Below are positions 12,403 to 64,000 of a DNA stretch of 64,000 bases, piece by piece. The position numbers and the translations under genes are program-made. The notes beneath the pieces were generated by a model. The model made no database searches. It had not been told where the DNA came from and saw nothing but the letters and a program-made list of their open reading frames with translations. Within the stretch, counting starts at the first letter, position 1. Each line of letters begins with the position of its first letter. The DNA comes from Peronospora farinosa (Eukaryota; Oomycota; Peronosporomycetes; Peronosporales; Peronosporaceae), in NCBI GenBank assembly GCA_947646735.1, contig CANTFK010000713.1, positions 248,001 through 312,000 of the forward strand, read 5' to 3'.

Positions 12403-13183
12403 GGTTATGAGCCCAAGACGGGAAGCAAACGACGACACCAACGCGGCACAGGCGCCGCCGGCAACCGGTCACGAAAGGGCCGCGGCCGCGCCTGCTACGG
12501 TCGTCTCTCCTACCGCTCACGCAAGGAGCCCGGAGCCTGACGCACTGGAGAGGGTCCTCAAGATGCTCACGGGCATGGACTTGCGAATGCAGAAGATAGA
12601 AGCATCCCAAGCACGCATGGACGAAGACGAGCGCATGCGTGGCGCTCACGAGAGCGAGCTGTTCCGATCAGAGCTCGGGGCGGACTTCGCAGGGCGACTC
12701 CACGGCGGCGCAATGGAGCTTGAGGACTTGCACGATCGGCAGTCTCAGCAGCAATTGCGGCGTGCACCAGCGCGGCTCGAAGACCTACGGATGCGAGCGA
12801 GAGAGCAGCTGCAGCAGCGTGCTGATCCGTTGCCTCAGCCGCCTGCCCCATTGCCACCATACCAGCCGGCACCAGTGCCTCAGACGATGCCGGCAGCTCC
12901 AGGGCAGCCAGTACAGCAGCAGCAACAAGTAATGCCGATGCAGTATCGCACTCCGGATGCCAGGCAGCGCAAGCTAGCGATCCGCAAGTTCGATGGCACT
13001 GAGGTGTACGTTGGACTCGAGTCCGGCTTCTTCGACTGGGGCAAGACGTTTTGGCGCCAGGTCGACATGGCACAGGAGTCTTGCGGTTTCCTGTGGAGCG
13101 AGAATGTGAAGACTGACGTGCTCGGGCAGTACCTCACTGGCACTGCCGAGCGGTATTTCAGCAAGCAGGTCGACACGTGGTGA
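12389..13183 (+). CDS. Copia gag N-terminal part, ends at in-frame TGA
   Basis: The frame is open from inside the LTR to TGA at 13181-13183. ATG candidates are 12335, 12389 and 12407; I chose 12389 because it lies at the LTR edge, but this is uncertain. The N-terminal 150 residues are rich in R, E, A and P/Q (including a glutamine run), then comes the conserved gag core ([34 protein letters not shown]). The next frame begins in the same phase right after the TGA, so one nonsense change separates the two halves. Oomycete relatives, as I recall them, have a second tryptophan where the TGA stands. Confidence 0.75.
12403..12420 (+). other. Primer-binding site, probably anticodon-arm (half-tRNA) type
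   Basis: The 18 bases directly after the 5' LTR are ggttatgagcccaagacg. Their reverse complement contains ttgggCTCATAAcc, which has the form of a methionine tRNA anticodon arm (loop CUCAUAA with CAU anticodon). The Drosophila copia element is known to prime from an internal fragment of initiator Met tRNA with a very similar site. A conventional 3'-end PBS would begin TGG, and this does not. The tRNA itself is not in the window, so the primer identity is inferred. Confidence 0.6.
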
Positions 13184-13186
13184 GCC

Positions 13187-16100: not shown

Positions 16101-16978
16101 AGTTCCTCGGCATGCGTGTCACGATTGATAACAGTGGCGGCTACGTGCTTGACCAGGCCGAGGCGATCGGCGAGCTCCTGCGTGAGCATGGGCTCGAGGA
16201 TGCAAACCCGACGAAAGCACCAATTGGGGCTGACTGCCACGACGTGCTACCAGATGACAGCGCGCTGCTCACCGAGACTAAGGTGCAGAAGGCGCCAACA
16301 ATCAAGACGTTCCAGTCCCTCGTCGGCAGTCTTCTGTGGATCGCGCGTTGCACACGGCCGGACATTGCGTTCGCCGTGCACAAGGCGACGCGTCAGACTC
16401 ATCAGCCGCGACTCCACGATATGAAGCTTGCCAAACGCATCGCGCGGTACCTGAAGGGGACGCGGGACTACAAGCTTCGGATGGAACCAGCGAAGCACCT
16501 CGACGGCAAGATCCAGCTCGAGGCGTACTCGGACGCCGATTTTGCGGCGGAAAAGAGTGACAGAAAGTCCTTGACTGGCGGCATCATCCGCCTGAACGGC
16601 ATGCCGGTCAGCTGGACGTCGAAGAAGCAAGGCGGCGTCTCGCTCTCGACGATGGAAGCGGAGTTCGTCGCTGCATCGGAGCAGGCGCGCGAGCTTCTTG
16701 GTATCAGGGAGATGCTAACCGAGATCGGTAAGCCGCCGGCGCTACCGATGGTACTCCACGTCGACAATCAGGCGGCACTGAAGCAGCTGGCAGGCGAGGC
16801 GTCATCTCTAAAGGCCAAGCACATCGATGTTCGCACGAAGTTCGTGTGCGACTTCGCTCGACGCGGGATCATCGTGTCGCAGTACGTCCGCTCGGAGCAA
16901 CAACTAGAGGATCTTTTGACGAAGGCGCTAGATGCAGTCAAGCTCGCGGCGCTGTGTGAGATGATCAGCCTAGGTTAG
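13187..16978 (+). CDS. Copia gag-pol polyprotein (rest of gag, PR, INT, RT, RNase H)
   Basis: 1263 codons with no break. In order: the end of gag; CCHC knuckle CHGCGKVGHLKKDC (about residue 130); aspartic protease WILDSGSSRHLV (about 199); GAG pre-integrase zinc-binding HHCC (about 350-400); integrase with SDLKG, RTDGGGEY and NGKAER giving the D,D,E triad (about 416-517); reverse transcriptase with KWVFKTK, LYGLKQAGRLW and catalytic YVDD (about 776-940); RNase H with YSDADFA, STMEAEFVA and HVDNQAA (about 1113-1200). All expected catalytic residues are visible, so the enzymes may be functional if supplied by read-through or in trans. It is in the same frame as the gag segment upstream, separated by one TGA. 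The listed start is not an ATG, and translation would come from the upstream gag start. Confidence 0.93.
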   Translation: MLPKLQYVMQRMLDTFKTTITAAQAMNLFTAKKESKRSWPEHYLYLVAVSDAAGGAEQQVLDNIVRYASSELSTILMAKYQTHRTDYLVHAEELAHFAQAIEMEARSGRSFGKEVVAHVDESVSRKETRTCHGCGKVGHLKKDCRSKKNDDKKRGRGPKDGGSITLAVGEGRGRNGSRATGQSLAMAIGDDSDDEDDDWILDSGSSRHLVNDATLLRDARDCDQECHLADGETIKLTQVGSVVLTVLARGQQQDVTLTDVYLAPELSRNIMSYGKLEIKGFGLVYDGESRVLARRSNGQVAFDVAMDHNVLYVQTVAAARERRAPRDALMAILTSQADPKEPESDTQSGSLLHFHQRLGHLAYDTVERMARDPASGIVLTDRKRPTCISCAQGKQTRNVQSKKDTGSNSPIDRVGGVICSDLKGPMTPKDRLHNRYLVNFVDHKSNYCRVFLAPTKDKAAKKFEHFLAFFERQFDCRIHVLRTDGGGEYANVDLFCKRTGVARQISEARNQASNGKAERMHRTILNMARSMIFASRLPLTFWGDAVEYAAYILNRSPTSANAKRASPIEVLTKQVPDLRDIVAFGSICSVYRDPGKNSLAQRAQVGVIIGRSDETKGFRVFLQKDNKVTITQHVRNVETLSAEQNGQLQRALEYEDQAVEPAATATTSKELPAADDAASPTIRSGKKKSKSWTRAAHRTRGATKRAHAAAHQEEPAGDDSVVAHVYECDPKNYGEALRSTKREGWEKAMREELQALEDNGVWRLIKRPPGSNTLHTKWVFKTKTDAHGEIERLKARLVACGNEQVFGVDYQLTFAADMDMSTVKVILALAAIWGVPAKHGDIPNAYVKADKEAHLEILLQVPQAMTIDQDALKMVGAATKKEVVLQLRKSLYGLKQAGRLWSQLLHARLLEAGFRQCISDMCLYYQVEGGQLVIVGVYVDDLLATGTDAAAVDRFFVKLGSLSIKDLGTVSKFLGMRVTIDNSGGYVLDQAEAIGELLREHGLEDANPTKAPIGADCHDVLPDDSALLTETKVQKAPTIKTFQSLVGSLLWIARCTRPDIAFAVHKATRQTHQPRLHDMKLAKRIARYLKGTRDYKLRMEPAKHLDGKIQLEAYSDADFAAEKSDRKSLTGGIIRLNGMPVSWTSKKQGGVSLSTMEAEFVAASEQARELLGIREMLTEIGKPPALPMVLHVDNQAALKQLAGEASSLKAKHIDVRTKFVCDFARRGIIVSQYVRSEQQLEDLLTKALDAVKLAALCEMISLG

Positions 16979-16995
16979 GACGGTAAGTCGTAGCC

Positions 16996-17004
16996 GAGGA
17001 GGAG
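16996..17004 (+). other. Copia polypurine tract
   Basis: gaggaggag sits directly before the TG of the 3' LTR. This is the expected position of the plus-strand primer for reverse transcription. Confidence 0.7.
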
Positions 17005-17257
17005 TGTTAGAAAAAGGCACGGTTGAAGTTACAGTTGAGGAAACGGCTGACGACTTAGGAAGGCGTTCGAGGATCAGTTGAGCGATTGATTGGACAGGTG
17101 CGTGGATGGGCGATTGATTGGACAAGAGTGATGGAGAACAAGAACAACTAGTCCATCATGCTAGCACGAAAAAGATAACACTAATAACAATGTCAGAATC
17201 CTTTTATCACAGTGCCGCCGACTTCCTCTCTACAGCTTGCATCATGGCAAGCGAACA
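17005..17257 (+). repeat. Copia 3' LTR
   Basis: 253 bp with one mismatch to the 5' LTR. It is followed by the target-site duplication GAACA (17258-17262). Confidence 0.95.
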
Positions 17258-17964
17258 GAACAAGTGTGATGGATTGGATTCTCAAACAACGCAGGAGATC
17301 CACAAAGACACACAGCACCTTACTGCCAACTTACGGAGGAGGTACCTCGATACCGTGTCGTGTCAACCTTGGGTCTCACCTTGTGTACCCGTCGGCTTAG
17401 CTGGTCTTGCTTCTCGTTAGACGCAGAAGACTTATAGACTTGGTCCTTGTATGGAGGGACTTGGTGGTCCCCGAGTGGATATGCTTCACTCGGGACCGGG
17501 TTTCTTGTGCTCGATCGACTGTTTCGAGAGCGATGCCCCTGGTACTATGTACCCCTATGGTGGCTGACTGTTCTTGGTCCTTGAACCCCTTTGTGTTCTT
17601 CCCCGTAGGGAAACCGCTTCCTATAGCGCGTCGTCGAGTCTTGACACCTCAGGCCAACTATCCTGAGGTTCAACTTGCACAGCTTGAGCCGTCTAACACC
17701 TGCTGATGTCGGGGGGATAAAGGGTATCTCGCCCGAAAGAGGTGAGGCGACGGAGAAGCTTAGAAGGGGCGCTTAAAGCTGCTACGTGTAATGCAAATTC
17801 GAGTGTGTTTATATATCTTATTCTTCGTATCCTTTTCTTGCCTTACCCTACCTTTCGCGCTGGATGGTACCACGTGTTAACTTGTGAAAGAACAACTGGC
17901 TCTTTTAGGACAATGGACTTGTACCGGCTCCTCTCTCAAGGGAAGCCTTGTACCTTCTATAACC

Positions 17965-18095
17965 TTGGGTCACCTGTTCACCTGGGGTACCGGTCACCTA
18001 AGGTCATCCTGATCCACTGGGGTACCGGGTCACCTTGGGTCACATTGGTCACCTGGGGTACCGGGTCACCTTGGGTCATCCTGGTCCACTGGGGT
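17965..18095 (+). repeat. Minisatellite, about 32-35 bp units (copy A)
   Basis: Imperfect tandem copies of a unit containing tggggtaccgggtcacc and ttgggtca. The same array occurs at 23577-23692. The step from diverged to near-identical sequence between the two duplication copies falls inside it. Confidence 0.75.
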
Positions 18096-18869
18096 GCCCG
18101 AACTACTTTCGTGGCACTGGACCTTCGGGCCATTGGCTTTGTGCCGGCTTTGCAATGTAGGAAACGACCTTGTATTTTCTCTGATTCGGAACCCTGGGCC
18201 ACTTCGAGGTCTTGGTCACTCCCTGTCATTCATTCGAGAGAGTGACCGAGAACCTTGCTGCCAGTTATTATAATAATTTGCGAAGGGCCTCCATTTCCTT
18301 GGCACTTCCCCACACAAGTCTTATCGAGACTTGTGACCTTCAACTCAAATTGAAAACTGATTTTATTTATGCATTAAGATTTTATAAATTGTTCTACTCT
18401 AAGTACTCTACACTAGATAAATACAATTATAATAATTATAGTATGCCATCGTCTGTTAATTTGGATATGGAAGCATCCAATCATCAGTGGATGTTGTACA
18501 GTACAACATACACTAAGTACAACTTGTACTGAGTAATACTGTATCACATATATAGCCGATACCAATAGTATACGGTATTACTGATTACTTATAATATGAC
18601 TCATATATAATACTTAAACGGTGATATATTTATATGATACTTTAGCCGTGATGTACTTTCGGTATGATGTTACAACCGTCTTGTTACCCCGTTACATTAA
18701 TAGCAATGCCCGTTCCTCGTTCGAGTCCAGTGCTATACGTACACATTCGGTGAACGGCTCTGGCTCTGGCACGTTGACATAACATTAGACGAGCTCCTTG
18801 AATATTCGTGTCGATGATACGTTTGTGCGACATGTTCGCGCACCCGAAGAAAATTGTAGCTTTGTAAGA

Positions 18870-18892
18870 TGAAGTGCGACATCTTACAAATC
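18870..18892 (+). promoter_or_regulatory. Leader hairpin upstream of GH17 copy A
   Basis: gtaagatg and catcttac form a perfect 8-bp inverted repeat about 160 bp before the GH17 start; the same hairpin lies at about 24453-24475 in copy B. In the inverted third copy near 610-640 one arm is altered, so the hairpin is lost. Its function is unknown. Confidence 0.35.
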
Positions 18893-19051
18893 CCCCAGCT
18901 CACATTCGTGCGTAAAGCACATCGCACGATCGGGGTACAGGGATCCGTGATTGGGATATATCGTAAACTCGCTGGCCATCCCAAATTTCACCCGAAAGCT
19001 CATTTCCAAAACTTCGTTGTGACCAGCATCAATCAAGAAACCACAAACACA

Positions 19052-19927
19052 ATGGTCTCTTCACTGAATCTAGCAGTCTTGGTCGCTGCTTCCACTCTTG
19101 CTGTGGGTATTGCCAAGCCATTGCAGCTCTCCAGCGGTATCTTCTACGATCCTGCGCGTCACTCCCAAGTCAACACGACAGTTATTGCTGAAGACCTGAG
19201 CCTTGTTGCCCAGCACTTCTCCAGTATCCGCACGTATTCCGCGAAGTTCAATGACATCAGTGCCATCGCCATGGCAGCTTCAGCCAATCTTCGCATCGCA
19301 GTCGGCGTAAGCATGGGGGTACCCTGGTTTATAGACTCCGAGATCCAAGCGGTTTGCGACGGCGTAGCCCAATATCCTCAGACCGTCGAAGCTGTTTACG
19401 TCGGCAGTGAGAGTCTCAAGAACGGTGACATTGGCATGTACACGGCTGATCAGATCATTGGGTACATCAACGAAGTGAAAAAATGCGTTAAGGGCAAGGT
19501 GCCGGTTGGATCGATTCTGCGCGTTAACGAATGGCTACACGTTTATACTGCCGATGCGATAGCAAAGGCGTCCGATCTTGTGGGTTGCAACATATACCCG
19601 TTCTTCACGCCCGGTACTGAACCTCCGATAAAGAAGCTGGAAAGTCAGTGGGGAGAAATGGTGAAGAAGTTTGGCGACAAGGTCCGTCTAACAAAGACAG
19701 ATTGGCCCCACATGGGAGAAAAAGTTGATGATAATGTCCCGTCAAAGAACACCATGCAGCAGTATTTTGACGACTACCGTACCACTTGGTCGTCCTATGG
19801 CAAGAATCAGTCGTACTATTTCAGAGCCTTCGACTCGACAGAGATCTCAGGAGCACGTTACGAGATTTTCACTGGTCTCTTTGACATCAATGGGGTACCT
19901 AACATTCAGTTGCCCATAACGCCCTAG
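19052..19927 (+). CDS. Secreted GH17-family protein, copy A, likely catalytically altered
   Basis: 291 codons. The frame is open further upstream (from 18869), but ATG 19052 is chosen because it begins a clear signal peptide (MVSSLNLAVLVAASTLAVGIA). The mature part has the GH17 layout (endo-1,3-beta-glucanase/glucan transferase, TIM barrel): YDPARHS start, IRTYS segment, VYVGSES with the acid/base glutamate (E120), a CNIYPFF segment, and the strand that normally carries the nucleophile glutamate (T-E-x-GWP). Here that strand reads LTKTDWPH, with lysine 215 where glutamate is expected. GH17 enzymes act on cell-wall beta-1,3-glucan, but this copy probably cannot cleave by the normal mechanism. 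It may bind glucan or have a changed role. Copy B is nearly identical and has the same change. The promoter region is shared too. Confidence 0.8.
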   Translation: MVSSLNLAVLVAASTLAVGIAKPLQLSSGIFYDPARHSQVNTTVIAEDLSLVAQHFSSIRTYSAKFNDISAIAMAASANLRIAVGVSMGVPWFIDSEIQAVCDGVAQYPQTVEAVYVGSESLKNGDIGMYTADQIIGYINEVKKCVKGKVPVGSILRVNEWLHVYTADAIAKASDLVGCNIYPFFTPGTEPPIKKLESQWGEMVKKFGDKVRLTKTDWPHMGEKVDDNVPSKNTMQQYFDDYRTTWSSYGKNQSYYFRAFDSTEISGARYEIFTGLFDINGVPNIQLPITP

Positions 19928-20694
19928 CCGAACAACAATGCTTTACTGCAATATCTCAACCGCATTGCATAGTAAGTGAGAATTAGATTAAAAAATCTGA
20001 TCCTTGTAGCTTTTCCATCATTGAAGTCGAATTTTTGTTCGTCAAAACGGTCATGCTACAGCATGAAAGTAAGATGAAGTGAATACGACACACAAAAGGT
20101 TATTCTATTGTCAAGTCATTCAACTTCTAGCGCTAGTTTTGCGACCACTTAAAACCTTGTTCGATACGAAGCGTCTACGGCAGCAACTGTCATCTCCTTT
20201 CTCTCCTACATCTGGACCAAAAAAGGTCTCGATAAGCTCCCTGCTCTTGTCTCCCGTGCTAGAAGGTTGTAATGTAGGGTATACCAACCAGACTGAATAA
20301 GCATCCGTCTACCTGCAGATCGGCTTTCGCTGCTCACCAGCGGACAAGTAGTGTGTGGTATCATGTAGTGCATTCCCGCGATATTTTGTGAGCACTATTT
20401 GTTTGTAAGAAAGCCAAGTTGGAGTCAATAGCGGCTGCTACGTCGTCGTAGCACATTCACTTTTTACTTACAGATACGTTCATGATGTTATTGCTGCCAA
20501 GCCACACCGACAAGTGTGACATCGTACGGACGAGTTCCGTGCTCGATATGATTCCGTCACCTTTTCATTTTGCTGTGAAATAGGGAAAGCATGACATTGT
20601 CAATGTTATTTGAAGTGAAGAGAAGGCAATACACGTTTACAAGCTGCTTGGAACGTTAAAGAGTTATACAAGGCAATTAAACCACTAAGGCCTC
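19928..20694. other. 3' flank of GH17 copy A
   Basis: No gene recognised. It is about 98% identical to the flank of copy B (25511-26270). Short frames here are not supported. A near-perfect inverted string (tgctacgtcgtcgtagca) occurs near 20435. Confidence 0.5.
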
Positions 20695-22705: not shown

Positions 22706-23576
22706 TGATATCTCTGTGGCGGAGTGGATTATTAAAAAACGTAGGGAGCCACAAACACATACAGCGCCGGACTTCCGACTTACGGAGGAGGTACCCCGAT
22801 ACCGTGTCGTGTTAACCTTGGGTCTCAACTTGTGTACCCGTCGGCTTGGCTGGTCTTACTCCTCGGTTGACGCAGAAGACTTAAAGACTTGGTCTTGTAT
22901 AGAGGAACTTGGTGGTCCCCGAGTGGATATGCTTCACTCGGGACCGGGTTTCTTGTGCTCGATCGACTGAGTCGAGAGCGATGCACCTGGTACTATGTAC
23001 CCCTTTGGTGGCTGACTGTTCTTGGTCTTTCGACCCCTTTTCTTGTTCCCCGTAGGGAAACCGCTTCCTATAGCGGGTCTTGAATGGGTACGAACCCACA
23101 GGCCAAAATACTTCCTGGGGTTCGTTCAAGCTTGAATCTTACCACACGACTGTCTTTAACGGGGGGGGGGGCAAAATAAATCCCTTCCCCGGAAAAGGTG
23201 GGTATATCGAAACAAGTTCGCACTTAAGTCTTGACACTTACTTGGCACCTCAGGTCAACTATTCTGAGGTTCAACTTGCGTTGTTTGAGCCGTCACCTCA
23301 CCTGACATCGGAGGGCCAAAGGGTATCCCGCCCTGAAAAGGTGAGGTGCGGAGAAGAGCTTGGAGGGGGGGCGCTTAAAGATTCCACGTCTAATGCACAT
23401 TCGAGTGTGTTTATTTATCTTATTCTTCGTATGCTTTTCTTGCCTAGCCCTAACCCTTCGCGATGGATGGTAACACGTGTCAACTTGTGATAGAACAACT
23501 GTCTCTTTTAGGACATGAGACTTGTACCGTCTCTACACCGTATGGAAGCCTTGTACCTTCTATAACCTTGGATCCT

Positions 23577-23692
23577 GGTCACTTGGGGTACCGGGTCACC
23601 TTGGGTCACCCTCGTACCGGGTCACGTTAGGTCATCCTGGTCACCTGGGGTACCGGGTCACCTTGGGTCATCCTGGTCCACTGGGGTGCCCG
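23577..23692 (+). repeat. Minisatellite (copy B)
   Basis: Same family of units as the array at 17965-18095, with one unit arranged differently. Confidence 0.7.
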
Positions 23693-24634
23693 AACTACTT
23701 TCGTGGCACTGGACCTTCGGGCCATTGGCTTTGTGCCGGCTTTGCAATGTAGGAAACGACCTTGTATTTTCTCTGATTCGGAACCCTGGGCCACTTCGAG
23801 GTCTTGGTCACTCCCTGTCATTCATTCGAGAGAGTGACCGAGAACCTTGCTGCCAGTTATTATAATAATTTGCGAAGGGCCTCCATTTCCTTGGCACTTC
23901 CCCACACAAGTCTTATCGAGACTTGTGACCTTCAACTCAAATTGAAAACTGATTTTATTTATGCATTAAGATTTTATAAATTGTTCTACTCTAAGTACTC
24001 TACACTAGATAAATACAATTATAATAATTATAGTATTGTTAATTTGGATATGAAAGCATCCAATCATCAGTGGATGTTGTACAGTACAACATACACTAAG
24101 TACAACTTGTACTGAGTACTACTGTATCACATATATAGCCGATACCAATAGTATACGGTATTACTGATTACTTATAATATGACTCATATATAATACTTAA
24201 ACGGTGATATATTTATATGATACTTTAGCCGTGATGTACTTTCGGTATGATGTTACAACCGTCTTGTTACCCCGTTACATTAATAGCAATGCCCGTTCCT
24301 CGTTCGAGTCCAGTGCTATACGTACACCTTCGGTGAACGGCTCTGGCTCTGGCACGTTGACATAACATTAGACGAGCTCCTTGAATATTCGTGTCGATGA
24401 TACGTTTGTGCGACATGTTCGCGCACCCGAAGAAAATTGTAGCTTTGTAAGATGAAGTGCGACATCTTACAAATCCCCCAGCTCACATTCGTGCGTAAAG
24501 CACATCGCACGATCGGGGTACAGGGATCCGTGATTGGGATCTATCGTAAACTCGCTGGCCATCCCAAATTTCACCCGAAAGCTCATTTCCAAAACTTCGT
24601 TGTGACCAGCATCAATCAAGAAACCACAAACACA

Positions 24635-25510
24635 ATGGTCTCTTCACTGAATCTAGCAGTCTTGGTCGCTGCTTCCACTCTTGCTGTGGGTATTGCCAAG
24701 CCATTGCAGCTCTCCAGCGGTATCTTCTACGATCCTGCGCGTCACTCCCAAGTCAACACGACAGTTATTGCTGAAGACCTGAGCCTTGTTGCCCAGCACT
24801 TCTCCAGTATCCGCACGTATTCCGCGAAGTTCAATGACATCAGTGCCATCGCCATGGCAGCTTCAGCCAATCTTCGCATCGCAGTCGGCGTAAGCATGGG
24901 GGTACCCTGGTTTATAGACTCCGAGATCCAAGCGGTTTGCGACGGCGTAGCCCAATATCCTCAGACCGTCGAAGCTGTTTACGTCGGCAGTGAGAGTCTC
25001 AAGAACGGTGACATTGGCATGTACACGGCTGATCAGATCATTGGGTACATCAACGAAGTGAAAAAATGCGTTAAGGGCAAGGTGCCGGTTGGATCGATTC
25101 TGCGCGTTAACGAATGGCTACACGTTTATACTGCCGATGCGATAGCAAAGGCGTCCGATCTTGTGGGTTGCAACATATACCCGTTCTTCACGCCCGGTAC
25201 TGAACCTCCGATAAAGAAGCTGGAAAGTCAGTGGGGAGAAATGGTGAAGAAGTTTGGCGACAAGGTCCGTCTAACCAAGACAGATTGGCCCCACATGGGA
25301 GAAAAAGTTGATGATAATGTCCCGTCAAAGAACACCATGCAGCAGTATTTTGACGACTACCGTACCACTTGGTCGTCCTATGGCAAGAATCAGTCGTACT
25401 ATTTCAGAGCCTTCGACTCGACAGAGATCTCAGGAGCACGTTACGAGATTTTCACTGGTCTCTTTGACATCAATGGGGTACCTAACATTCAGTTGCCCGT
25501 AACGCCCTAG
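24635..25510 (+). CDS. Secreted GH17-family protein, copy B, likely catalytically altered
   Basis: 291 codons, same start logic as copy A (signal peptide after ATG 24635). I see two base differences from copy A: a silent ACA/ACC next to the altered site, and one giving valine for isoleucine near the C-terminus. The acid/base glutamate (VGSES) is kept, and the nucleophile position is lysine 215 (LTKTDWPH), as in copy A. The lysine was therefore present before the last homogenisation of the pair. Both genes keep intact frames and a complete leader, so the altered protein may be maintained rather than decaying, though the copies are too young for strong proof. Confidence 0.8.
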   Translation: MVSSLNLAVLVAASTLAVGIAKPLQLSSGIFYDPARHSQVNTTVIAEDLSLVAQHFSSIRTYSAKFNDISAIAMAASANLRIAVGVSMGVPWFIDSEIQAVCDGVAQYPQTVEAVYVGSESLKNGDIGMYTADQIIGYINEVKKCVKGKVPVGSILRVNEWLHVYTADAIAKASDLVGCNIYPFFTPGTEPPIKKLESQWGEMVKKFGDKVRLTKTDWPHMGEKVDDNVPSKNTMQQYFDDYRTTWSSYGKNQSYYFRAFDSTEISGARYEIFTGLFDINGVPNIQLPVTP

Positions 25511-28500
25511 CCAAACAACAATGCTTTACTGCAATATCTCAACCGCATTGCCATAGTAAGTTAGAATTAGATTAAAAAATCTGATCCTTGTAGCTTTTCC
25601 ATCGTTGAAGTCGAATCGACGAATTTTTGTTCGTCACAACGGTCATGCTACAGCATGAAAGTAAGATGAAATGATACGACACACAAAAGGTTATTCTATT
25701 GTCAAGTCATTCAACTTCTAGCGCTAGTTTTGCGACCACTTAAAACCTTGTTCGATACGAAGCGTCTACGGCAGCAACTGTCATCTCCTTTCTCTCCTAC
25801 ATCTGGACCAAAAAAGGTCTCGATAAGCTCCCTGCTCTTGTCTCCCGTGCTAGAAGGTTGTAATGTAGGGTATACCAACCAGACTGAATAAGCATCCGTC
25901 TACCTGCAGATCGGCTTTCGCTGCTCACCAGCGGACAAGTAGTGTGTGGTATCATGTAGTGCATTCCCGCGATATTTTGTGAGCACTATTTGTTTGTAAG
26001 AAAGCCAAGTTGGAGTCAATAGCGGCTGCTACGTCGTCGTAGCACATTCACTTTTTACTTACAGATACGTTCATGATGTTATTGCTGCCAAGCCACACCG
26101 ACAAGTGTGACATCGTACGGACGAGTTCCGTGCTCGATATGATTCCGTCAACTTTTCGTTTTGCTGTGAAATAGGGAAAGCATGACATTGTCAATGTTAT
26201 TTGAAGTGAAGAGAAGGCAATACACGTTTACAAGCTGCTTGGATCGCTGAAGAGTTATACAAGGCATCCAAACCACTAAGACCTCAATGATGAGAAGTAT
26301 GTCGTGTAATTCCAAATCATCGAGGCCTTAGTGATTTTATTGCACGCAACTTACAATTGATGGAAGCATGACTGGTAAGCGATGTATCCGTCGTCAACTA
26401 CTTTGAGCTTTTTACGTAGATTGCCAACATCATCCTTCGTTCAAGGCTCACTCGTATCTCGAATAGCAATGTAAAGTGTAAGCAACCCAGCACATCATAT
26501 GGATTTCCAATAGCAAAGGTGGTGCGGGTCCTGTGCACTGGTTCCAAACGCCTCATTCAGGTTACACTGGTACCTCGACGAAAGACATATCATGCGTGAC
26601 TCATTACGCATGCAAACTTGATAAAAGTAGACTTGACATAGCGGACAATATAGCCTAATGGTAATCATACTGTTGTGCTACATGCCGCACATACCTTGAC
26701 CCCATGGTGCTATATTACACGTCCCCAAACCATCGACTGTAACGTCGTACACTCGAGCTTCTCGCACGTTGATGTATCGTTATGATGTGCTAGCATCTAA
26801 CACTGTGCTTGGATCTGCACTGAGGTTTCCATTGCGCAAAAAAAGTTGCCAGCTTTTAACATGTGGCGCATCGCTTCATATAAATTGCATTTCCCACATC
26901 GTTCGCGTTGGTGAACAAAAACAATTGCTACAGCTTCTTCGATGTCGTCAAGAAGCGAGTTATCGAAGGCGATGGATCGAGTTGGGACGTCCCAGCTATC
27001 GGAGGTTGCACAATTTAGCTTGCCCGGTTTCAAGCGATTTTCGCTCCGAGATACAATAGCTTCATCTGGTGTCCACGACCTCTCAACCACCCGCGCTGTC
27101 GACACCAAGTAACGGTACAAACTCCCTATTCAGTCGTGTGGCCGGTACTCGTGCTTGCAAGTGATACAACTCCTATCGCCGGGGTGGATTGTTTTTGGGA
27201 GTAGCTTTAGTATCTTTGGTCGTTGCTGACTTCTAAGCGACGTGCGGTGATCACTAATTTGCATTACTTGGGGTGTCTATGGGATTGCATACACGCACAA
27301 CACGAACCAATTGTTTCGACATTCGATATGCGGTGGGGGCATCGACCTATCCTTATGCCCTGTAGACGTCCTTCACCGTTTCCTGCAAAGCCTTCACAAA
27401 CGATGTAGTTGAGAGAGAAGAATTTTGCACATCTCTTTCCATCAATTCGATTAAGTGGTTCCTGCCAGAGCGTTATTTATCGCCAAGCTGTCTGACGCTC
27501 ATAGAGATGTTAGGACTCAGGGGTCACTGACTAGTAGCAACCAAGAGAGATCGATGGTACGGTTTTGCAGCTCAAAAAGTATCAGAGCTCTTATTTTGTA
27601 GACAGCGGATAACAAAGCTTTCTAAACCCGGCGTGAAAAGAGAAAGCGTTGTCCCCCATGCGGCAAGTCTGCTGTGGCGAGAATACTCTCGATATTGATT
27701 GTCCTTCGACGAAGGCGCGCAAACTGCTTCATCCTCCCGAAGGCTTAGTTATTTAGACTCAGGTCGGATTGACTACAAGTGGTATGAAATCGTAGCGAAA
27801 TACCAGAGAAACTCTTGAAGCCTCTTGGCTATCTTTTATAATTCTAATTCTCTGCAAGACAAAACTTCTCCCAGGTATCTCAAAGAATATGAGTACATTT
27901 ATGGGAAGACTTCCTAAAGAGCATTGTTAACGCTAAGTACTGACGATGTTTTTTTATCTGTAGTTCCGTTACAGACGTAACATGTTTCAAAAGTAATTTC
28001 GTCTTCATGTTGTAGATCTTCTAACGACAACTCATTTATAAAGAAGCATTCTTGTGTCTTTCGAAATAGGAGTCCATAGAGATTGCGATAAGGTCGCATG
28101 CCAACAACAATTGATGTCTGTTTAGTGACCCCGTTCTCTTTGCCATGCGACTGTACAACCAACCTACAGCATCTAGATAAAGGCGTTCCTCAGTGTAGGT
28201 ATGTGAAACCGACTTTAATGTGAATGTTGCCCAGACCCCCGACATGATTCTGTGACCCCGTGCGTGTGTCAGGACTAATGCATCGTAATAATATCATGTC
28301 ATTGTCCGAATACATCGGCTGATCTAAGTAGAGAGTCGAACCATTAAAGCAACTGAATACCTGGTCTCCAATTCCCAAATCTCTTTCATTCATTCGTGTC
28401 GGTTATCGTGGATGCCTCCTGGTCATATCTCTACTCTAAAAAGTGTTTGCCGGATGTAGTGCTTATCAATTTCGTCTTCACTGCAAACTCATTCAGCTTC

Positions 28501-30596: not shown

Positions 30597-30777
30597 AGTG
30601 AATTTTTAATGTAAATATCTCATCTTGACGAAGTGTATTACCGTATCATCTCTTCTATTTCCGATGATATTAAAAGTACTTAAGTACGGTTTCCAAGGTA
30701 TTTTTCCATCATTCGATCCAAAAAAGCAACCGACGACGGTAATATATTTCCCGCTTCTTTATCGCCTTGTATCGTCC

Positions 30778-32082
30778 ATGACAGAACCTTCCAGTGTTTT
30801 TGAAGGTGTTCCAGCTGTTGGTCATGAAGTTGAGAATCTTTCTGTTGTGTTTTCCGCTTGTAATTCGTCCTCTGGGACGAATAAACGGTCAGCTACTGAA
30901 GTGTTTGAAGGAGACAGTATCGAAGACTTAAACGACACGAAAACGACGTTAGATGACGTTTCAGTGCCTCGTGTACCCAAAAAAAGTAAATTAATTGACG
31001 AGGAGCTACCAGATGTGGACGATAATGAAGAATTTCCGATGCAAACGGAAGAAATGGACGAAAATTTGGCTCTTAGCTTGGAAAATGGGGAAAATGACTT
31101 AAATGTGGACGACGAGGCCCTTCTTTTAGCAAGTAGTAGTCATAATATTAGGGATAAAGACCGTTATGTAGCTACTGAAAAAGATGAAGAAGGATTCGCA
31201 CTTGTAAAAGAAGAAAAAGAAGAAGAAGAAGAAGAAGAAGAAGAAGAAGAAGAAGAAGAGAAGAGTGATTTTTCGACGTTGATAAACAATGAAATTGATA
31301 TTGTAGACGTTGAAGATGAAGATGAAGAAGAAGAAGCTGAAGATTATGAAGAACAATTTAGTGAAGAAGAAGAAGAAGAAAAAGCGACGATGCGAGCTGT
31401 TGCACGGGCTCAGAATCAGAAAGAAGCTCGAGACTTGTTATTGCAATTGGATGATTCGACGCGCAGTAAATTGTGTTTAACAGCAATGGAAAAATATGGA
31501 GAAGAGCTTTTTTATGGACATGAAGATGCACGAGATGCCATTTTAGTCGATGCCTGTGCTCAAGATTCAATTTTGTCGTTAATGCGAGATGCAATTCGAG
31601 TCAAGGATTTGTACTTGAGAGGATCATCAGCAGCAGCACCTTTGGAATTGGATGATGACGAGGAAGAGGAGGACGAGAACGAGGACGAAGGAGAGGGAGA
31701 AGATGAAATTGGAGGTTATGAAGATGAAGATGAAATTGGAGGTTATGAAGATGAGGAAGAAGAGGAAGAAGATGCTGACGATGAAGAGGAACAATCGACA
31801 GGTTCAATTGAAGATAACGATGATGAAGTTGTTGTCATTTCAGAGGAGGAAGAAGGGGAAAAGGCAGACATTGAAGCTTCAAGTATGATGCCACAACCAC
31901 ATTCTGCTGCCGAAACTGGCTGTGATACAGATCCGAACGATGGGTACAAAGGTGACCACAGCGAGCAGGGGATTATGGAAGGTGAATCACTAGGTAATGT
32001 AGGGGCAACAGGCGACTCAGCTTTAGAGTTGTCGATCGATGAGGAGGGGTCTTCACTGCCCAATGCAAGCAGCTACACCTAA
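30778..32082 (+). CDS. Acidic low-complexity protein of unknown function
   Basis: About 434 codons from ATG 30778; the frame is open upstream to 30625 but that leader looks like untranslated sequence. Nearly half the protein is D/E, with a pure glutamate run encoded by a GAA repeat. One segment of about 75 residues (ARAQNQKEARDLLLQLDDST through SLMRDAIRVKDLYLRG) is not low-complexity and looks like a folded helical domain. Acidic proteins of this kind are often nuclear (chromatin or ribosome biogenesis), but nothing here proves it. I do not recognise the family. The stop lies about 120 bp from the convergent phosphatase gene. Confidence 0.65.
   Translation: MTEPSSVFEGVPAVGHEVENLSVVFSACNSSSGTNKRSATEVFEGDSIEDLNDTKTTLDDVSVPRVPKKSKLIDEELPDVDDNEEFPMQTEEMDENLALSLENGENDLNVDDEALLLASSSHNIRDKDRYVATEKDEEGFALVKEEKEEEEEEEEEEEEEEKSDFSTLINNEIDIVDVEDEDEEEEAEDYEEQFSEEEEEEKATMRAVARAQNQKEARDLLLQLDDSTRSKLCLTAMEKYGEELFYGHEDARDAILVDACAQDSILSLMRDAIRVKDLYLRGSSAAAPLELDDDEEEEDENEDEGEGEDEIGGYEDEDEIGGYEDEEEEEEDADDEEEQSTGSIEDNDDEVVVISEEEEGEKADIEASSMMPQPHSAAETGCDTDPNDGYKGDHSEQGIMEGESLGNVGATGDSALELSIDEEGSSLPNASSYT
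31207..31260 (+). repeat. GAA trinucleotide repeat inside the acidic gene
   Basis: About 14 uninterrupted GAA units plus imperfect flanks, encoding a glutamate run. It is likely length-polymorphic but stays in frame. Confidence 0.9.
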
Positions 32083-39912: not shown

Positions 39913-40433
39913 CTATTCCTTAACAGGTTTCTCCGTGACGGGTGCGATCTCTTGAGCAGCAAGTTCTTCCTGCTTCTTGTCCTCCATCTCCTTATTCACC
40001 ACCTTGTTCACGTTCTTGTCCCCATCAACAGTGTCCTCCTTCTTGTCTTCGTCTGTCTTGGCTGTAAACAATACAATTCTTAGCTCTCGCTCTTTTTTTT
40101 TTTGAAAAAATGTCGCAACTTCCGAGTCCACCTACACTTTTCATCCTTATTCTTCCAATAATTGTCCATGTCACTGTCCAGTTTCTTGGCTGCATGTTCC
40201 TCGGATTTTCCCCAATAACTGTCCATCTCAGCGTCCAATTCCTCAGCAGTTTTCGACTTGGGCTTGTCGCCACCTCGACGACTGTGTCGGCCGCCCTTCG
40301 CTCGTCCCTTGGATTCGCCACCTCCACCCCCTCCACGACGACGGCTACGACCTTCACGTGCTCCCTCGTAGGGTGTTGCACGGTTTCTCCCACCGTTGCC
40401 GTTACTGCTGCGTCCTCCACGTCCACGAACCAT
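39913..40433 (-). CDS. RGG protein with FoP-duplication-type C-terminus, two exons
   Basis: Exons 40433-40136 and 40061-39913 (74-nt intron; donor chosen because it keeps frame into KTDEDKKED) give 148 residues. The N-terminal half is rich in RG/RGG and RRGGG, typical of arginine-methylated RNA-binding proteins. Then KTAEELDAEMDSYWGK is followed by AAKKLDSDMDNYWKNK, two copies of the motif seen at the C-terminus of Friend-of-PRMT1 (CHTOP) and ALY/REF, which contacts the mRNA export helicase. The tail is acidic/basic low complexity. No RRM is present. A role in mRNA export or chromatin is likely from the motif but not proved. Confidence 0.7.
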
Positions 40434-40705
40434 TACTAACTATCACGTAGATATGCTTCGATACAAAATTGCAGTGTAAAAAGCAGGACGGATAACCCCA
40501 GATTCCCTCGAACTGTCGCTTCATTCATTTTGACGGGGTTTACTGTAATATTTTATTTCAGCATCTTTTGACAATGTACACGTAATCAGACCAAGTAGCG
40601 AGAAAAGAGCCAGACTTTGGTCCTCAAGCGTCGCCAGGGCATCACGACCATCATTCCTTCAAACTTCAACAACCTGTCACCATATTCTCATTTACCGACC
40701 ACCAG

Positions 40706-41323
40706 ATGCCGAGGAAACTGCGTCATTGCGTCACCAAACAGGAGCCCATGATGACGCGCAGCTCAACCAGAGCCAGCACTGCATTAAAACCCATCGCTCC
40801 CAAGCCACGCGAACAAATGCCTGTCTTCGCTACGATCCTTACGAGCAAAGATACGACCTTAGAGAAGGCAAAACGTTCGGTAAGAATTGCATCATTGCCG
40901 TCTATTGCTCCAACGATATCTCCGTCAATAAAAGAAACGCGACCTAAGCATCGGAAACGTGAAGCTATTGAGCTCCCGTTTGGTCTTGCAGCTGCAGAAT
41001 TAAGTGGCAAAGAGGTGAAGCGACTAAAGAATCGCATTGCAGCCACTCGACTGCGTCAGCGGTCGCAGCAGGATGTGCGATCTCTACAAGAACAACTCAA
41101 GTATTACAAGACACGATGTGAGTTCTTAGACATTGTAGTGTCTGGCTGCGGTATTTGTGCTAGTCTCGGCGCTATGCATGTTAGAGAATTTGAATTGATC
41201 CCGGCGGAAACGAAAACAATCAAGATCGAGCCTGAGCTTGCGCTTGAGATCGAGGATGATGGAGAATTGCCAGTACTCACTGAAGCTGAGTGTGTTGTGC
41301 TTGACAGCGTTCTGCGTTATTGA
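40706..41323 (+). CDS. bZIP transcription factor
   Basis: 205 codons, ATG 40706. A basic region lies at about residues 100-125: EVKRLKNRIAATRLRQRSQQ, matching N-x2-A-A-x3-R of bZIP DNA-contact helices, followed by a short zipper (VRSLQEQLKYYKTRCEFLD). The residue normally Cys/Ser before the invariant Arg is Leu here. The C-terminal part is acidic (PELALEIEDDGELP) and could activate transcription. Oomycetes have many bZIPs with unusual contact residues. The target genes are unknown. Divergently arranged with the FoP-motif gene, about 270 bp apart. Confidence 0.82.
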   Translation: MPRKLRHCVTKQEPMMTRSSTRASTALKPIAPKPREQMPVFATILTSKDTTLEKAKRSVRIASLPSIAPTISPSIKETRPKHRKREAIELPFGLAAAELSGKEVKRLKNRIAATRLRQRSQQDVRSLQEQLKYYKTRCEFLDIVVSGCGICASLGAMHVREFELIPAETKTIKIEPELALEIEDDGELPVLTEAECVVLDSVLRY

Positions 41324-41750
41324 CCGTCGTGGTAACAATGTAACTTTGTGGTCGGTCTGCTCATTCGAGCTGCCACGTGATTGGGTCTCTTCTGACGACA
41401 GAGACATCATCACGAAGGGATACTAAACCCATTAAAAACGGTCCGTATCTTCAAATCAGCGTGAGATTACCATTCACTTTTGAGCTGAAGGTATCTGTCA
41501 TTGCTTCATGGCAATTCCTATTAGTATAAACACCTCGTAAACGTGTCGAGGAATTTAGGTAAAGGTTGCTGGTTATGTGTGAAGTTATTCTATGCACGAG
41601 TTGTGACAATGCCGATCGCTCTCATACAGCTACAGTCCGCACAATGACGTCCCGGGGATGCGTTCGCCTGCAGAAAACCCCCACAACAACACAAGAGATC
41701 GTTATTCTTAAGCACGTACTTGCATCTAAAGCACAGCACGAGCAATGCAA
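41324..41750. other. Convergent spacer between bZIP and STIMATE-family genes
   Basis: About 430 bp with no gene. Open frames seen here on the plus strand run into the antisense of the next gene and are not supported. Confidence 0.5.
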
Positions 41751-42656
41751 CTACAAAATCTCGTACATATCGGCAGCACTGGAGACATTTGACATACCAC
41801 GCGGCTTCTGCACTGCGTTCATGACACCATCCACTGATGGATCCAGTAGCGGGAGCTCCTCACTACTTGGTTGGCTATGGTCCATGAGGAAACTATCTTG
41901 GAGCCAGAACTGCACCATGTTCATGACCAATGGACAGCCAATCATGACGATCAGAAGCTCAATCTTCGGATAGTTGTGCACGGGGTAAAACAGTAGCGAC
42001 CCCATCCAACCCAATGGTGTCGAGAAGGCGTATAACACCAGACCCACAAAGAACTTCATAAAGGTCAGGACGGCACACCATTCCAGCAACTGTAGCCACC
42101 AGACTTTCCACGACGGTGGAGAGCCGTAATATCCATGACACCGAAGACTCGTCCATTGTTGTCGAATCTACATTAGCAAATTAGAATGAATTAACAGTCG
42201 CAAGAAGTTGCTGTAAAGTAGATGTAGTACTACTACTTACTGCAATTAATGTCACCAATTGGAGTAATAAATAAGCAATGTATACGCCTAATGTCGTATC
42301 AATTACTACATTCATGAAGTAAAAGGCACACTACATAGTCACATAGTCAGTCCAGTACCTCCTTTTTTTCATTCCCTTCAGCAATTAATAATATATTAAA
42401 TGTCACTAGCTACCTGATCCTGATCATTGGGCGTATCAGATATTTCCACCAGACCAATTGCATACAATATATTCATGACGTGGATCATCGCAGCCGATGT
42501 GCCTTGTTTCATAGCGTCCATGAACCAGATTTTAGCGGATCTCCGTGGTCGCTCAAAGTGCCATTTAGCGTATAGTGATGATAGAGCAATAAAACCCAAT
42601 AACATTTGCACAGCGTCATCTGTACGATCAGCTACGAGCGTACATTTGGAGCTCAT
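41751..42656 (-). CDS. STIMATE (TMEM110)-family membrane protein, three exons
   Basis: Exons 42656-42414, 42330-42241 and 42167-41751 give 249 residues; introns are 83 and 73 nt. Hallmarks of the family are seen in order: LLGFIALSSLYAKWHFERPRR, KIWFMDAMKQGTSAAMIHVMNI, CAFYFMNVVIDTTLGVYIAYL, a HGYYGSPPSWKVWWLQLLEW segment, and the C-terminal PLVMNMVQFWLQDSFL. In animals STIMATE sits at ER-plasma membrane junctions and supports STIM/Orai calcium entry; fungal relatives are vacuolar membrane proteins. Oomycete function is unknown. ATG 42656 is the first in frame after non-ATG open codons. Confidence 0.88.
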
Positions 42657-61772: not shown

Positions 61773-62012
61773 TGCTGCGATTTCCCAATAAGTTTCCCCA
61801 GTTCTCGTGGGGCTCTCGTCGCAATTATTTTTGTATAGACCTTGTATCTAGTTTAAAGGAGTGCGACAGGGCGGCAGTCGATGGCGTCACTAGAATTATA
61901 GACGGGCGCTTCTACGAAGTTGCCTCGAACTACTTAGTTCACACCTTCAGCACAAGCGAGGAAGCGGTTAGGCCGTCTTACCTTCGCGTGCGAGGGTTGC
62001 TGTGTGGTTGGT

Positions 62013-62092
62013 CGACTGCTTAAGCAGTCGTACCACCAGTTGTCTCTCGCTTAAGCGAGAGGGCAACGAACTTCTTACTTCTTAACAAGAAG
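62013..62092. repeat. Three consecutive perfect palindromes upstream of the gypsy LTR
   Basis: cgactgcttaagcagtcg (62013-62030), ctctcgcttaagcgagag (62044-62061) and cttctt-aac-aagaag (62078-62092). They sit 30-110 bp before the LTR, start the hairpin-dense zone, and may be internal sequence of another copy of the same family. Confidence 0.85.
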
Positions 62093-62123
62093 GCACCGAC
62101 GTCACGCAGAAGCTTTTCAGCCT

Positions 62124-62585
62124 TGTAACGGGGTGAGCCCGTTACATAATATTGACACTTATATGAAGTGTCAATAAAAATATTATTATAACTAATAATA
62201 TTTTTGACAATATTACCTTTTCTAATAATATTGTTCCTAGATCTCCTTGAAGTTTGAGATGCCCTATCATTGGTTGATATGGGCCATCATATCAACCAAC
62301 GCACTGACCAATGACCGATGGACGCGCGCAATGAGTGGAGGGCAAGTCGTCAACATACATAGTTGTAGTTTAATATAGTTAACACAGGTTATAACAGATT
62401 AGTTTTATTAAGATAGTTAACTATATTAAATACAGTTTTCTTTTCCTCTACTTCTAAGCGTTTGTTTAGAAGTAAAGCTTCCTCTGCCTCTTGTGTAAGA
62501 GAGGTAATTGAGGCACCTGCTTTCACTGTAATCGGTGAAAGTAGACTATATTGTAATCAGTATAGTCAAGGGGTGCCCCATTACA
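62124..62585 (+). repeat. Gypsy 5' LTR
   Basis: 462 bp, begins TGTAACGGGG and ends CCCCATTACA. Contains perfect hairpins of 9 (62124-62146), 10 (62151-62175), 13 (62176-62205), 9 (62207-62234), 12 (62270-62299), 15 (62369-62430, 32-nt loop) and 9 bp (62449-62474). Its ends resemble the solo LTR at 20695. It may be a 5' LTR of this element or a shared LTR with debris to its left. Confidence 0.8.
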
Positions 62586-62587
62586 CC

Positions 62588-62600
62588 TGGTAGCACTTCG
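62588..62600 (+). other. Probable gypsy primer-binding site
   Basis: tggtagcacttcg begins two bases after the LTR with the TGG expected from pairing to a tRNA CCA end. I cannot assign the tRNA. Confidence 0.55.
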
Positions 62601-62632
62601 TGGTCCGTTCAGCGACCACCGCACCACCCGCT

Positions 62633-63640
62633 ATGGAATCAGCGGGTGATGAACGTCATTACGCAACGCGTGATGATTTCCGCCATTTGAGTGACCTCGA
62701 ATGGAATGCGGTTCAGCGTATGGCTGAAACCATCGGCAACCCTGCCGTTGGTGCCATTTTGCTCTCTCTTAGCGGAGACGACCAACATGCAACCATCGCC
62801 AAGTTCATACAACATGAACTTGACGAAGTCGTAAAGAAACTCACCTTGCTACAGGAGCAAGGTTCTCAACAGGTTGAACTGTTGAGACAACAGCAGGCTA
62901 GTGCTGTTGCTGCCGGGTCGACGTGTATACGCCGACCCGAGTCCTTGAAGATTGATGTCTCCAAGTACAAGGCAGTCGAAAGCGACTCCTTGTTGAGATG
63001 GTTCGTCGAACTCGACGATGCCATTGAGGCTCGTCACATCGATGACGATGCGATGAAGGTCAAGTTCGCCATGTCGAACTTAGCAGGACGTGCCAAAGCT
63101 TGGGCCTTAGGGCTCAAACTGCACGACCCATACGTTTTCCCAACGTATGACGTCTTCAAGGCGCGGCTCAAACACACGTTTGAACCGCCTCGCGCCGAAT
63201 TCAGGGCTCGGGCTGAGCTCCTGGATTTGAAACAGGGTAAGCGTGACATACACGCTTACGCCCAACACGTACGATACCTCGTTAGCTGTATCGTACTGAA
63301 CCCAATTGATGAACACACGCAGGTTACTGTGTTCATCAAGGGTCTGACAGATGGTCCTGTCAAGACCCACCTGTTCCGCTTGGAACTAGAATCGATGGAT
63401 CAAGCGATCTCTGCAGCGGAACAGTAGGACTTTAGCCTACAACAGGCTCACGTCCACTCGGGATCCTATCGTCCACCGAGACGACAGGAGGGCGGAGGTC
63501 CAGAACCAATGGACCTCTCCTATGTAGAAAGCGAGCGACCTCGCTCTCCAGGGTACAAGCGATTGCAAAAGTGCAATCGCTGTCAGAAGTTGGGCCACTA
63601 CGCTTATGAGTGTAGTGCCCCACGCCCAGTGTGGGAGTGA
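62633..63640 (+). pseudogene. Gypsy gag with internal stop
   Basis: The first ATG (62633) lies in the loop of an 8-bp hairpin (62625-62648); the frame is open from before it. An N-terminal helical part is followed by the retrotransposon gag core: WFVELDDAIEARHIDDDAMK, NLAGRAKAWALGL, FKARLKHTFEPPRAEFRARA, LLDLKQGKRDIHAYAQHVRY and VFIKGLTDGPVKTHLFRLEL. A TAG follows at 63425-63427; the same frame then continues DFSLQQAHVHSG, EGGGPEPMDLSYVE and a CCHC knuckle CNRCQKLGHYAYEC before a TGA near 63638. Relatives as I recall them read through both sites. The coding sequence carries a perfect or near-perfect hairpin about every 40 nt. Confidence 0.82.
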
Positions 63641-63897
63641 CGATCGACCGTCTGCCAAGAAGGGCCAGAGACGTGGGTCCCACGTTGCTGCGAAATCGCA
63701 ACAACGTGGTGGACGATCAAAAAACGGTCGGGATCAGTAGGGGCGGAGCGCCCTACTGATCCAGCAACGTCAAGAGAGTTCGCAGGACTCTTGATGAGGG
63801 TTGCTCCCAACACACAGTCACTGTGTGTTGCCGCTCCCAGTGATGAGGTATCCCTCATCACCTTAAAGATCGAAGTGACAAAGAACATGTCACTTCG

Positions 63898-64000
63898 GCC
63901 CTAGTTGATTGTGGGGCTTCGAACAACTTTGTTCGACGCCAATCGCTAGATGATCGTAGGCTCAAATATGTTGAGCGCGAGACCCCTCCAACGAGGATGA
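63898..64000 (+). pseudogene. Gypsy protease start (partial)
   Basis: Frame reads LVDCGASNNFVRRQSLDDRR, the aspartic protease active-site region with D-C-G in place of the common D-S-G. It is one base out of register with gag, whose frame ends in TAG at 63902-63904. The element continues past the window. Confidence 0.65.

Follow-up and report, generated by a model that had tools for sequence, protein, structure and literature searches.

Genome-scale ordered RNA structure (GORS), in which an excess of folding runs along the whole genome, has been described in RNA viruses, and the genomes of the RNA phages MS2 and Qbeta also fold strongly. Here we analyse a 64,000-nucleotide stretch of the genome of the oomycete Peronospora farinosa (assembly GCA_947646735.1, contig CANTFK010000713.1, positions 248,001 to 312,000; hereafter the window), the last 2 kb of which carry the start of a Ty3/Gypsy long terminal repeat (LTR) retrotransposon tiled with short, perfect hairpins. 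A preliminary description of this DNA had noted the hairpins and offered two explanations, selection for a folded RNA or a copying process that turns near-palindromes into perfect ones, adding that no described element was known to have this habit. The last statement stands in part: genome-scale folding is a known kind of structure, as the viruses and phages show, but no report of hairpin-tiled LTR elements, or of GORS in LTR retrotransposons, was found in the open-access literature, which holds many matches beyond those inspected. What sets the present element apart is the intensity of the folding, its architecture of short and perfect hairpins, and its strand symmetry.

Several described systems provide a yardstick for the element. 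The available text of PMC7642675 gives genome-wide folding excesses of 7–9% for hepatitis C virus (HCV) and ~15% for SARS-CoV-2, which locally exceeds 50%; the top value there for a vertebrate RNA virus is 23.4%. The same text states that in SARS-CoV-2 repeated variants are over-represented at unpaired sites whilst single ones are not, and the folding of viral RNA is proposed there as a shield from recognition. In Qbeta replicase systems, according to the accessible part of PMC6913131, intramolecular structure hinders the annealing of complementary strands and is used to prevent the formation of double-stranded RNA (dsRNA). Within the superfamily to which the element belongs, the genomic RNA of yeast Ty3, analysed by SHAPE-MaP (selective 2′-hydroxyl acylation analysed by primer extension and mutational profiling), has structured regions across the genome; stable structured regions account for up to 30% of Ty1 and Ty3 RNA, however, and the available portion of that study (PMC11381356), whose text nowhere uses the word 'hairpins', describes no chain of perfect hairpins.

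The element is 8.0–8.2 kb long, begins at position 62124 of the window and continues beyond its end. It had previously been placed from 61980 onwards, but the sequence from there to 62122 belongs to another repeat family. The 3′ partner of its LTR lies outside the window, ~7.6 kb downstream (L021 8204–8663), and is 97.0% identical to the 5′ LTR. The genome searched for further copies amounts to 46.9 Mb. Within each of five copies the LTR pairs are 97.0–99.3% identical, indicating that the hairpin family has moved recently. A 5-bp target-site duplication, read by eye from the flanks, is present in three of six copies (L021, L026 and L023), inexact in L024 and without a clear counterpart in L022 and L028. 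Pfam matches above cut-offs identify gag (PF03732) and RT/RNase H (reverse transcriptase, RT; PF00078, PF17919 and PF17917), with RT at L021 3575–4834 and integrase after it (PF17921 at L021 4838–5395, PF24626 at L021 5624–6751); this order of gag, RT, RNase H and integrase is that of Ty3/Gypsy elements. No Pfam match was obtained for L021 2476–3489. The copy in the window is broken, its gag frame being closed at 63427 and its pol in pieces, and in L024 the frames read from stop to stop comprise 407 aa (gag) and 1289 aa (pol). With direct LTRs at its ends and no long terminal inverted repeats, the element is not a foldback element or one resembling miniature inverted-repeat transposable elements (MITEs). 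An Rfam search of L021 at the gathering score gave no matches to known structured RNA families, and no relatives of the element DNA were found in collections of viral and genome contigs. When RT was used as the query, 60 of the best 100 of 4234 candidate places showed at least 80% identity and belong to the hairpin family, the other 40 lying at 68–69%. Around 62857–62893 of the window, most scored copies match in two pieces that share some query sequence but are separated by ~30 bases in the genome, so these copies carry extra sequence at this point.

All 23 inverted repeats listed in the preliminary description exist, each with perfectly matching arms of 8 bp or more, although the one at 62369 has a loop of 32 nt and the one listed at 62151 starts at 62150. 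An independent scan of 61980–64000 (arms of at least 8 bp, loops of at most 15 nt) found 24 hairpins, whereas 100 dinucleotide shuffles averaged 0.28 and never exceeded 2; for arms of at least 10 bp the figures are 7 and 0.01. The earlier chance estimate of ~0.4 was sound. The same scan found no hairpins in a control stretch at 40000–42000, and a greedy count in which touching hairpins are dropped gives 22 in the last 2 kb of the window and 34 in the remaining 62 kb. The excess also held when codons were preserved during shuffling, with 8 hairpins observed in gag against 0.46 expected, and 10 and 13 in the RT of two copies against 0.3–0.4. Hairpins do therefore run through coding sequence and bend its codon choice, as had been suggested, the pattern being carried by synonymous choice.

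Nor is the pattern restricted to the LTR and gag, where it was first described, since in L024 it extends through pol and a frame on the antisense strand. In three copies that span both LTRs (L021, L024 and L023), stems with a score of at least 7 number 134, 152 and 149, against means of 8–10 in ten dinucleotide shuffles of each, and 42–47% of bases lie inside hairpins. The density per kb in L024 is 17.3 in the LTR, 18.8 in gag, 17.1 in pol and 21.6 in the antisense frame; its stems span 18–32 nt in 144 of 152 cases, with a loop of 4 nt the commonest; to the eye, the loops are enriched in A (0.31) but show neither a sequence motif nor a special tetraloop. Perfect hairpins in gag and pol with arms of at least 7 bp peak at a total span of 21–23 nt (28 against 0.9), with no clear excess at 33 nt and above. 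All 50 family loci counted, some of them overlapping, are rich in perfect hairpins with arms of at least 8 bp (35–63 in 4.2–5.0 kb), including 35–52 in each of 30 RT-region loci on 22 contigs. Family sequence in the fetched loci contains 3149 hairpins over 265.7 kb, and other sequence 49 over 33.8 kb, overlapping loci being counted repeatedly.

Folding energies, whose calculation had also been proposed in the preliminary description, are extreme. In all 26 windows of 300 nt into which L024 was divided, the RNA of the plus strand is far more stable than its shuffles (z of −5.4 to −11.5). Mean z is −8.2 for the plus strand and −8.4 for the minus, compared with −0.1 for a copia element (9 windows) and −0.6 for host sequence (13 windows), and the first 977 nt from 62124 give −12.1 and −14.4. 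Folding-energy excess was expressed as the gain over 12 dinucleotide shuffles per 350-nt fragment, 11 of 22 fragments being used for the element. On the plus and minus strands respectively it reaches 45.9% and 47.0% in the element, 27.2% and 23.0% in MS2, 29.4% and 25.4% in Qbeta, 12.6% and 13.4% in L059 (a related gypsy family), 3.9% and 3.2% in copia and 1.6% and 0.4% in host genes. The 46–47% of the element is well above both phages by the same method; set against the available text of PMC7642675, whose methods are similar to ours without being identical, it is about twice the top genome-wide value for a vertebrate RNA virus and exceeds the 7–15% of HCV and SARS-CoV-2.

Variation among copies was used to ask how this folding is maintained. 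Alignments were made of 30 copies over 4.2 kb of the RT region and of 19 copies over the gag region (L005 being dropped from an initial 20). A variant found in at least three copies was classed as shared and one found in a single copy as private, the latter presumably mostly reflecting change after insertion. Blocks of 50 or 25 columns with a local divergence from the commonest bases above 12% were masked, mutation spectra being taken from unmasked alignments. With stems defined on copy L031, shared variants in the RT region occupy 18 of 1386 arm sites and 98 of 2771 sites elsewhere when all positions are considered (p=1.5e-5); with stems defined in any copy the contrast is weaker but kept (40 of 2049 against 79 of 2193, p=0.001). 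Private variants hit arms about as often as other sites (p=0.24). At third codon positions of pol, with stems present in at least 10 copies, shared variants are found at 9 of 452 arm sites, 33 of 694 sites outside hairpins and 21 of 143 loop sites (arms versus rest, p=0.0002; loops versus arms, p=6e-8), and with stems in any copy at 18 of 606 against 45 of 683 (p=0.003). Private variants do not avoid arms at third positions (p=0.30) and codon positions 1 and 2 show no difference (p=0.75). Replacing the list of stems by pairing probability (the mean of eight copies) gives 26 of 917 paired and 23 of 232 unpaired third positions with shared variants (p=1.5e-5), the corresponding figures for the minus strand being 24 of 895 and 22 of 243. 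That private variants hit arms and shared ones avoid them indicates that the constraint acts during replication of the element and not on its resting genomic copies. Together with the folding energies, the synonymous constraint on RT-region arms supports the first of the two original explanations, and sequence comparison makes it highly probable that the element is selected for folding along its whole length.

In these respects we would say that the element works like GORS. The folding excess extends along its entire length, repeated variants avoid paired sites in the RT region (not significantly so in the gag region) whilst single ones do not, and stem positions mostly differ between relatives: of the 45 stem centres in L031, 3 coincide with the 16 that L059 has in the compared region (0.9 expected by chance) and 0 with the 8 in L060 (0.4 expected), L059 and L060 representing families at 68–69% RT identity. 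Because the carrier is an LTR retrotransposon rather than an RNA virus, however, the comparison is one of likeness and membership is not claimed. Differences from GORS also include the short and perfect arms, the scarcity of G–U pairs and the symmetry between strands in the computed folding. MS2 and Qbeta share with the element strong computed folding on both strands, but lean towards the plus strand, contain 8–11% G–U pairs where the element has 5.4% (plus) and 5.5% (minus), and replicate from RNA to RNA, which a retrotransposon does not. Pairs spanning at most 30 nt make up 81% of those in the element and 54–55% of those in the phages.

Of four other gypsy sequences compared with the element, two fold strongly by means other than perfect hairpins; folding is less strong in L059 and least strong in L060. 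L061 (439 bases only, from a gypsy family at 62% RT identity) has codon-shuffle folding z of −9.9 and −10.0, and an RT frame on the minus strand of the window at 9614–10369 has values of −5.0 to −6.8. In both, median pair spans are 27–33 nt within longer, imperfect stems, and there is no clear excess of perfect hairpins with arms of at least 6 bp (2 against 1.25 and 5 against 2.3). L059 contains 10 perfect hairpins with arms of at least 8 bp in a 3-kb frame against 1.0 expected. L060, from the C177 gypsy family, seemed hairpin-rich with arms of at least 6 bp (33 against 8.5) but was rejected as such, many of these being copies of an internal tandem repeat in the pol region with a period of ~87 nt (read by eye) and small palindromes. 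Related families thus differ in how strongly they fold, and perfect mini-hairpins represent one route to strong folding. The repeat at 61980–62122 has two palindromes of its own; the hairpin habit may not be confined to a single family. Among the best 40 of 688 candidates for this repeat, the 39 others are 89–91% identical and include six pairs ~7.5 kb apart.

The antisense frame of L024 (6426–8324, minus strand) is up to 633 aa long and runs across the final part of the sense frames into the 3′ LTR. A Pfam search with it gave no match, but the protein has 184 database homologues at E≤0.001; of the 120 listed, every one that is named comes from Peronospora. Matches in P. effusa are 80–92% identical and one P. 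matthiolae cluster represents 1335 sequences. In the present genome, the best 70 of 927 candidates yielded 85 matches. Since the frame belongs to a protein family, transcripts of both strands are probably made by the element. In Phytophthora infestans, the accessible part of PMC3522703 describes small RNAs of three size classes (21, 25/26 and 32 nt) and reports that two abundant Gypsy elements are covered by small RNAs in both orientations.

How, then, is the pattern best explained? Chance, base composition or an assembly artefact can for practical purposes be set aside, contradicted as they are by the shuffles, by the recurrence of hairpins at RT-region loci on 22 contigs and by the hairpin-poor DNA nearby. 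A copying process, in which reverse transcriptase folds back, switches template and perfects near-palindromes with no need for selection, has more in its favour: quasipalindrome correction by template switching involves short perfect inverted repeats of similar size, and the exact Watson–Crick arms of the element, in coding and non-coding sequence alike, as well as the short span of its stems, resemble this. Copying from arm to arm should, however, leave many compensated double changes, and the compensatory changes that the preliminary description suggested looking for do not exceed slid controls in either the RT region (4 against 0–4) or the gag region (1 against 0–3). A first count (22 and 75 cells) proved mostly an alignment artefact due to an internal deletion in L005, badly aligned parts of L036, L049 and L051 and flanking DNA, its excess vanishing once badly aligned blocks were masked. 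Where a private variant falls on an imperfect or terminal pair, it restores pairing in 41 of 100 cases, about as often as in slid controls (179 of 480); clusters of several bases in one arm were not searched separately. The lack of excess in the copia element of the same window and the strong folding of two gypsy sequences that have no perfect hairpins also speak against copying. Neither compensated nor pair-restoring changes being in excess, we conclude that selection on folding rather than conversion is at work, and regard a copying process as quite improbable. If selection acted on the sense RNA alone, as in classical GORS serving packaging, compaction or protection from nucleases or host sensors, G–U pairs should be welcome. 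They are not favoured: in stems where either wobble is allowed, G–U makes up 66 of 931 pairs and A–C 61 of 998. The plus strand of the element is also no more stable than its minus strand: whereas MS2 and Qbeta lean towards plus by 4.4 and 5.0 kcal per 350 nt respectively (p=0.07 each), the element leans towards minus by 0.7 kcal (p=0.70). Equal folding of the two strands, with G–U no commoner than A–C, makes the sense RNA alone an unlikely target, even though the pattern of variants has the same statistical signature as that of SARS-CoV-2 in the available text of PMC7642675 and strong folding is common to two other gypsy sequences.

The choice between the two strands and the minus strand alone is more delicate. 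Selection on first-strand (minus) complementary DNA (cDNA), whose hairpins would make it compact, protect it inside the particle or stop reverse transcription from slipping out of register, is compatible with Watson–Crick pairing, which is strand-symmetric. It would also account for the single mismatches in long stems, mainly A–C and pyrimidine pairs, which on the minus strand become G–T and purine pairs (27 against 6 in 33 L024 stems of at least 9 pairs), and shared variants display no mutational strand bias (52 against 54 transitions, 19 against 17 transversions). Bulk folding energy, however, has no preference for the minus strand (p=0.86 by z, in addition to the comparison per 350 nt above), shared transitions in arms lean the opposite way (9 against 5) and the contrast of A–C with G–T mismatches alone is 13 against 3 (p=0.07). 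Private transitions outside arms have a strand bias that runs the same way as that of the mismatches (163 against 109; 308 against 289 for all private transitions, unmasked), so mutation may explain part of them. We consider selection on minus cDNA alone rather unlikely, extra weight on that strand being possible. On balance, we lean towards a constraint whose target includes both strands, and the explanation that we prefer as a whole, with some reserve, is selected strand-symmetric folding that shields the sense and antisense strands. Both the coding and the non-coding parts of this Ty3/Gypsy element, in a Peronospora-like oomycete, would have been selected to fold into ~150 short hairpins, with arms of 7–14 bp and total spans mostly of 18–32 nt, such that the sense RNA and its complement (an antisense transcript or first-strand cDNA) would each collapse locally before they could anneal or be probed. 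Local collapse would reduce dsRNA formation, cutting by Dicer and access for guide RNAs, a logic like that of single-stranded RNA phages that would here operate in an LTR element at higher intensity. The strand symmetry points to the avoidance of sense–antisense annealing or silencing as the benefit, a step we take only tentatively. Several observations weigh against this explanation. In gag and pol, one-mismatch stems are of kinds milder on the minus strand in 21 cases against 4 (codon-shuffle null 50%, p=0.0009), and admitting shorter stems leaves a bias of 26 against 11 (p=0.02), favouring the minus strand over both. At third positions beyond the perfect hairpins, pairing brings no reduction in variability (14 of 326 paired against 2 of 78 unpaired). 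Shared variants do not significantly avoid arms in the gag region, with stems in any copy (12 of 1466 against 21 of 1988, p=0.60), in at least 3 copies (11 of 1262 against 22 of 2192, p=0.86) or in at least 10 (6 of 1180 against 27 of 2274, p=0.06). The antisense frame is only slightly denser in hairpins than the rest (21.6 against 17.7 per kb), and the pattern is thus not dependent on an antisense gene. Finally, all the LTR elements compared come from one host.

The features within the window are collected in Table 1. Neighbouring host genes and the copia element (12150–17258; 254-bp LTRs, 99.6% identical) had been described as unlike the gypsy element, and indeed they have no hairpin excess, the copia element being a good internal control; a mild excess exists at 1–2000 and 18–26 kb of the window. 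At 1–2000, hairpins with arms of at least 7 bp number 6 against 0.6, including perfect palindromes at ~1014, 1035 and 1849. A 3-kb stretch is present in two direct copies (17640–20694 and 23241–26285) that are 96% identical, each with mild hairpin excess and a 355-aa frame for which no Pfam match was found. Elsewhere in the window, a 490-aa frame at 30610–32079 overlaps a region of pronounced asymmetry between the strands (31001–32000, GC skew 0.418), and a ferric reductase has its closest named relative in Peronospora belbahrii (81%).

Table 1. Positions of the retrotransposon, its hairpins and the adjoining repeat in the window
Feature	Position	Strand	Details
Window part of Ty3/Gypsy element	62124..64000	+	31 stems of score at least 7; 42% of bases in hairpins; folding-energy excess 47.1% (plus strand)
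5′ LTR	62124..62585	+	462 bp, TG...CA ends; from self-comparison, flanks and LTR identity
gag reading frame of window copy	62633..63427	+	Retrotrans_gag PF03732; stop at 63425–63427
Hairpin at LTR end	62124..62146	.	9 bp, loop 5
Hairpin	62150..62176	.	11 bp, loop 5
Hairpin	62176..62205	.	13 bp, loop 4
Hairpin	62207..62234	.	9 bp, loop 10
Hairpin	62270..62299	.	12 bp, loop 6
Inverted repeat	62369..62430	.	15 bp, loop 32
Hairpin	62449..62474	.	9 bp, loop 8
Hairpin	62625..62648	.	8 bp, loop 8
Hairpin (gag)	62800..62822	.	9 bp, loop 5
Hairpin (gag)	62843..62863	.	8 bp, loop 5
Hairpin (gag)	62864..62887	.	9 bp, loop 6
Hairpin (gag)	62888..62909	.	8 bp, loop 6
Hairpin (gag)	63129..63149	.	8 bp, loop 5
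Hairpin (gag)	63237..63259	.	9 bp, loop 5
Hairpin (gag)	63269..63296	.	9 bp, loop 10
Hairpin (gag)	63306..63339	.	12 bp, loop 10
Hairpin	63495..63517	.	8 bp, loop 7
Hairpin	63558..63581	.	10 bp, loop 4
Hairpin	63680..63709	.	14 bp with one mismatch, 2 nt between arms
Hairpin	63731..63762	.	12 bp, loop 8
Hairpin	63808..63830	.	11 bp, loop 1
Hairpin	63840..63861	.	9 bp, loop 4
Hairpin	63871..63897	.	10 bp, loop 7
Hairpin	63919..63936	.	8 bp, loop 2
End of another LTR-like family, not this element	61980..62122	.	two perfect 9-bp palindromes at 62013 and 62044

More speculatively, a eukaryotic retrotransposon lineage might have evolved a genome-wide, strand-symmetric, codon-written hairpin armour, in which stretches of 20–30 nt are already folded on both strands, giving an anti-silencing device made from sequence structure alone, with other gypsy families of the genome arriving there by other architectures such as longer imperfect stems. 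Whatever the benefit, a multi-copy family offers natural replicates, its private mutations serve as a near-neutral control, and sister families with weak folding share the same cells; with these the purpose of genome-scale folding becomes testable, for example whether it reduces the load of small RNAs or increases copy number. The finding also cautions against treating as neutral the third codon positions of elements of this kind, the dating of their LTRs or the statistics of their codon usage.

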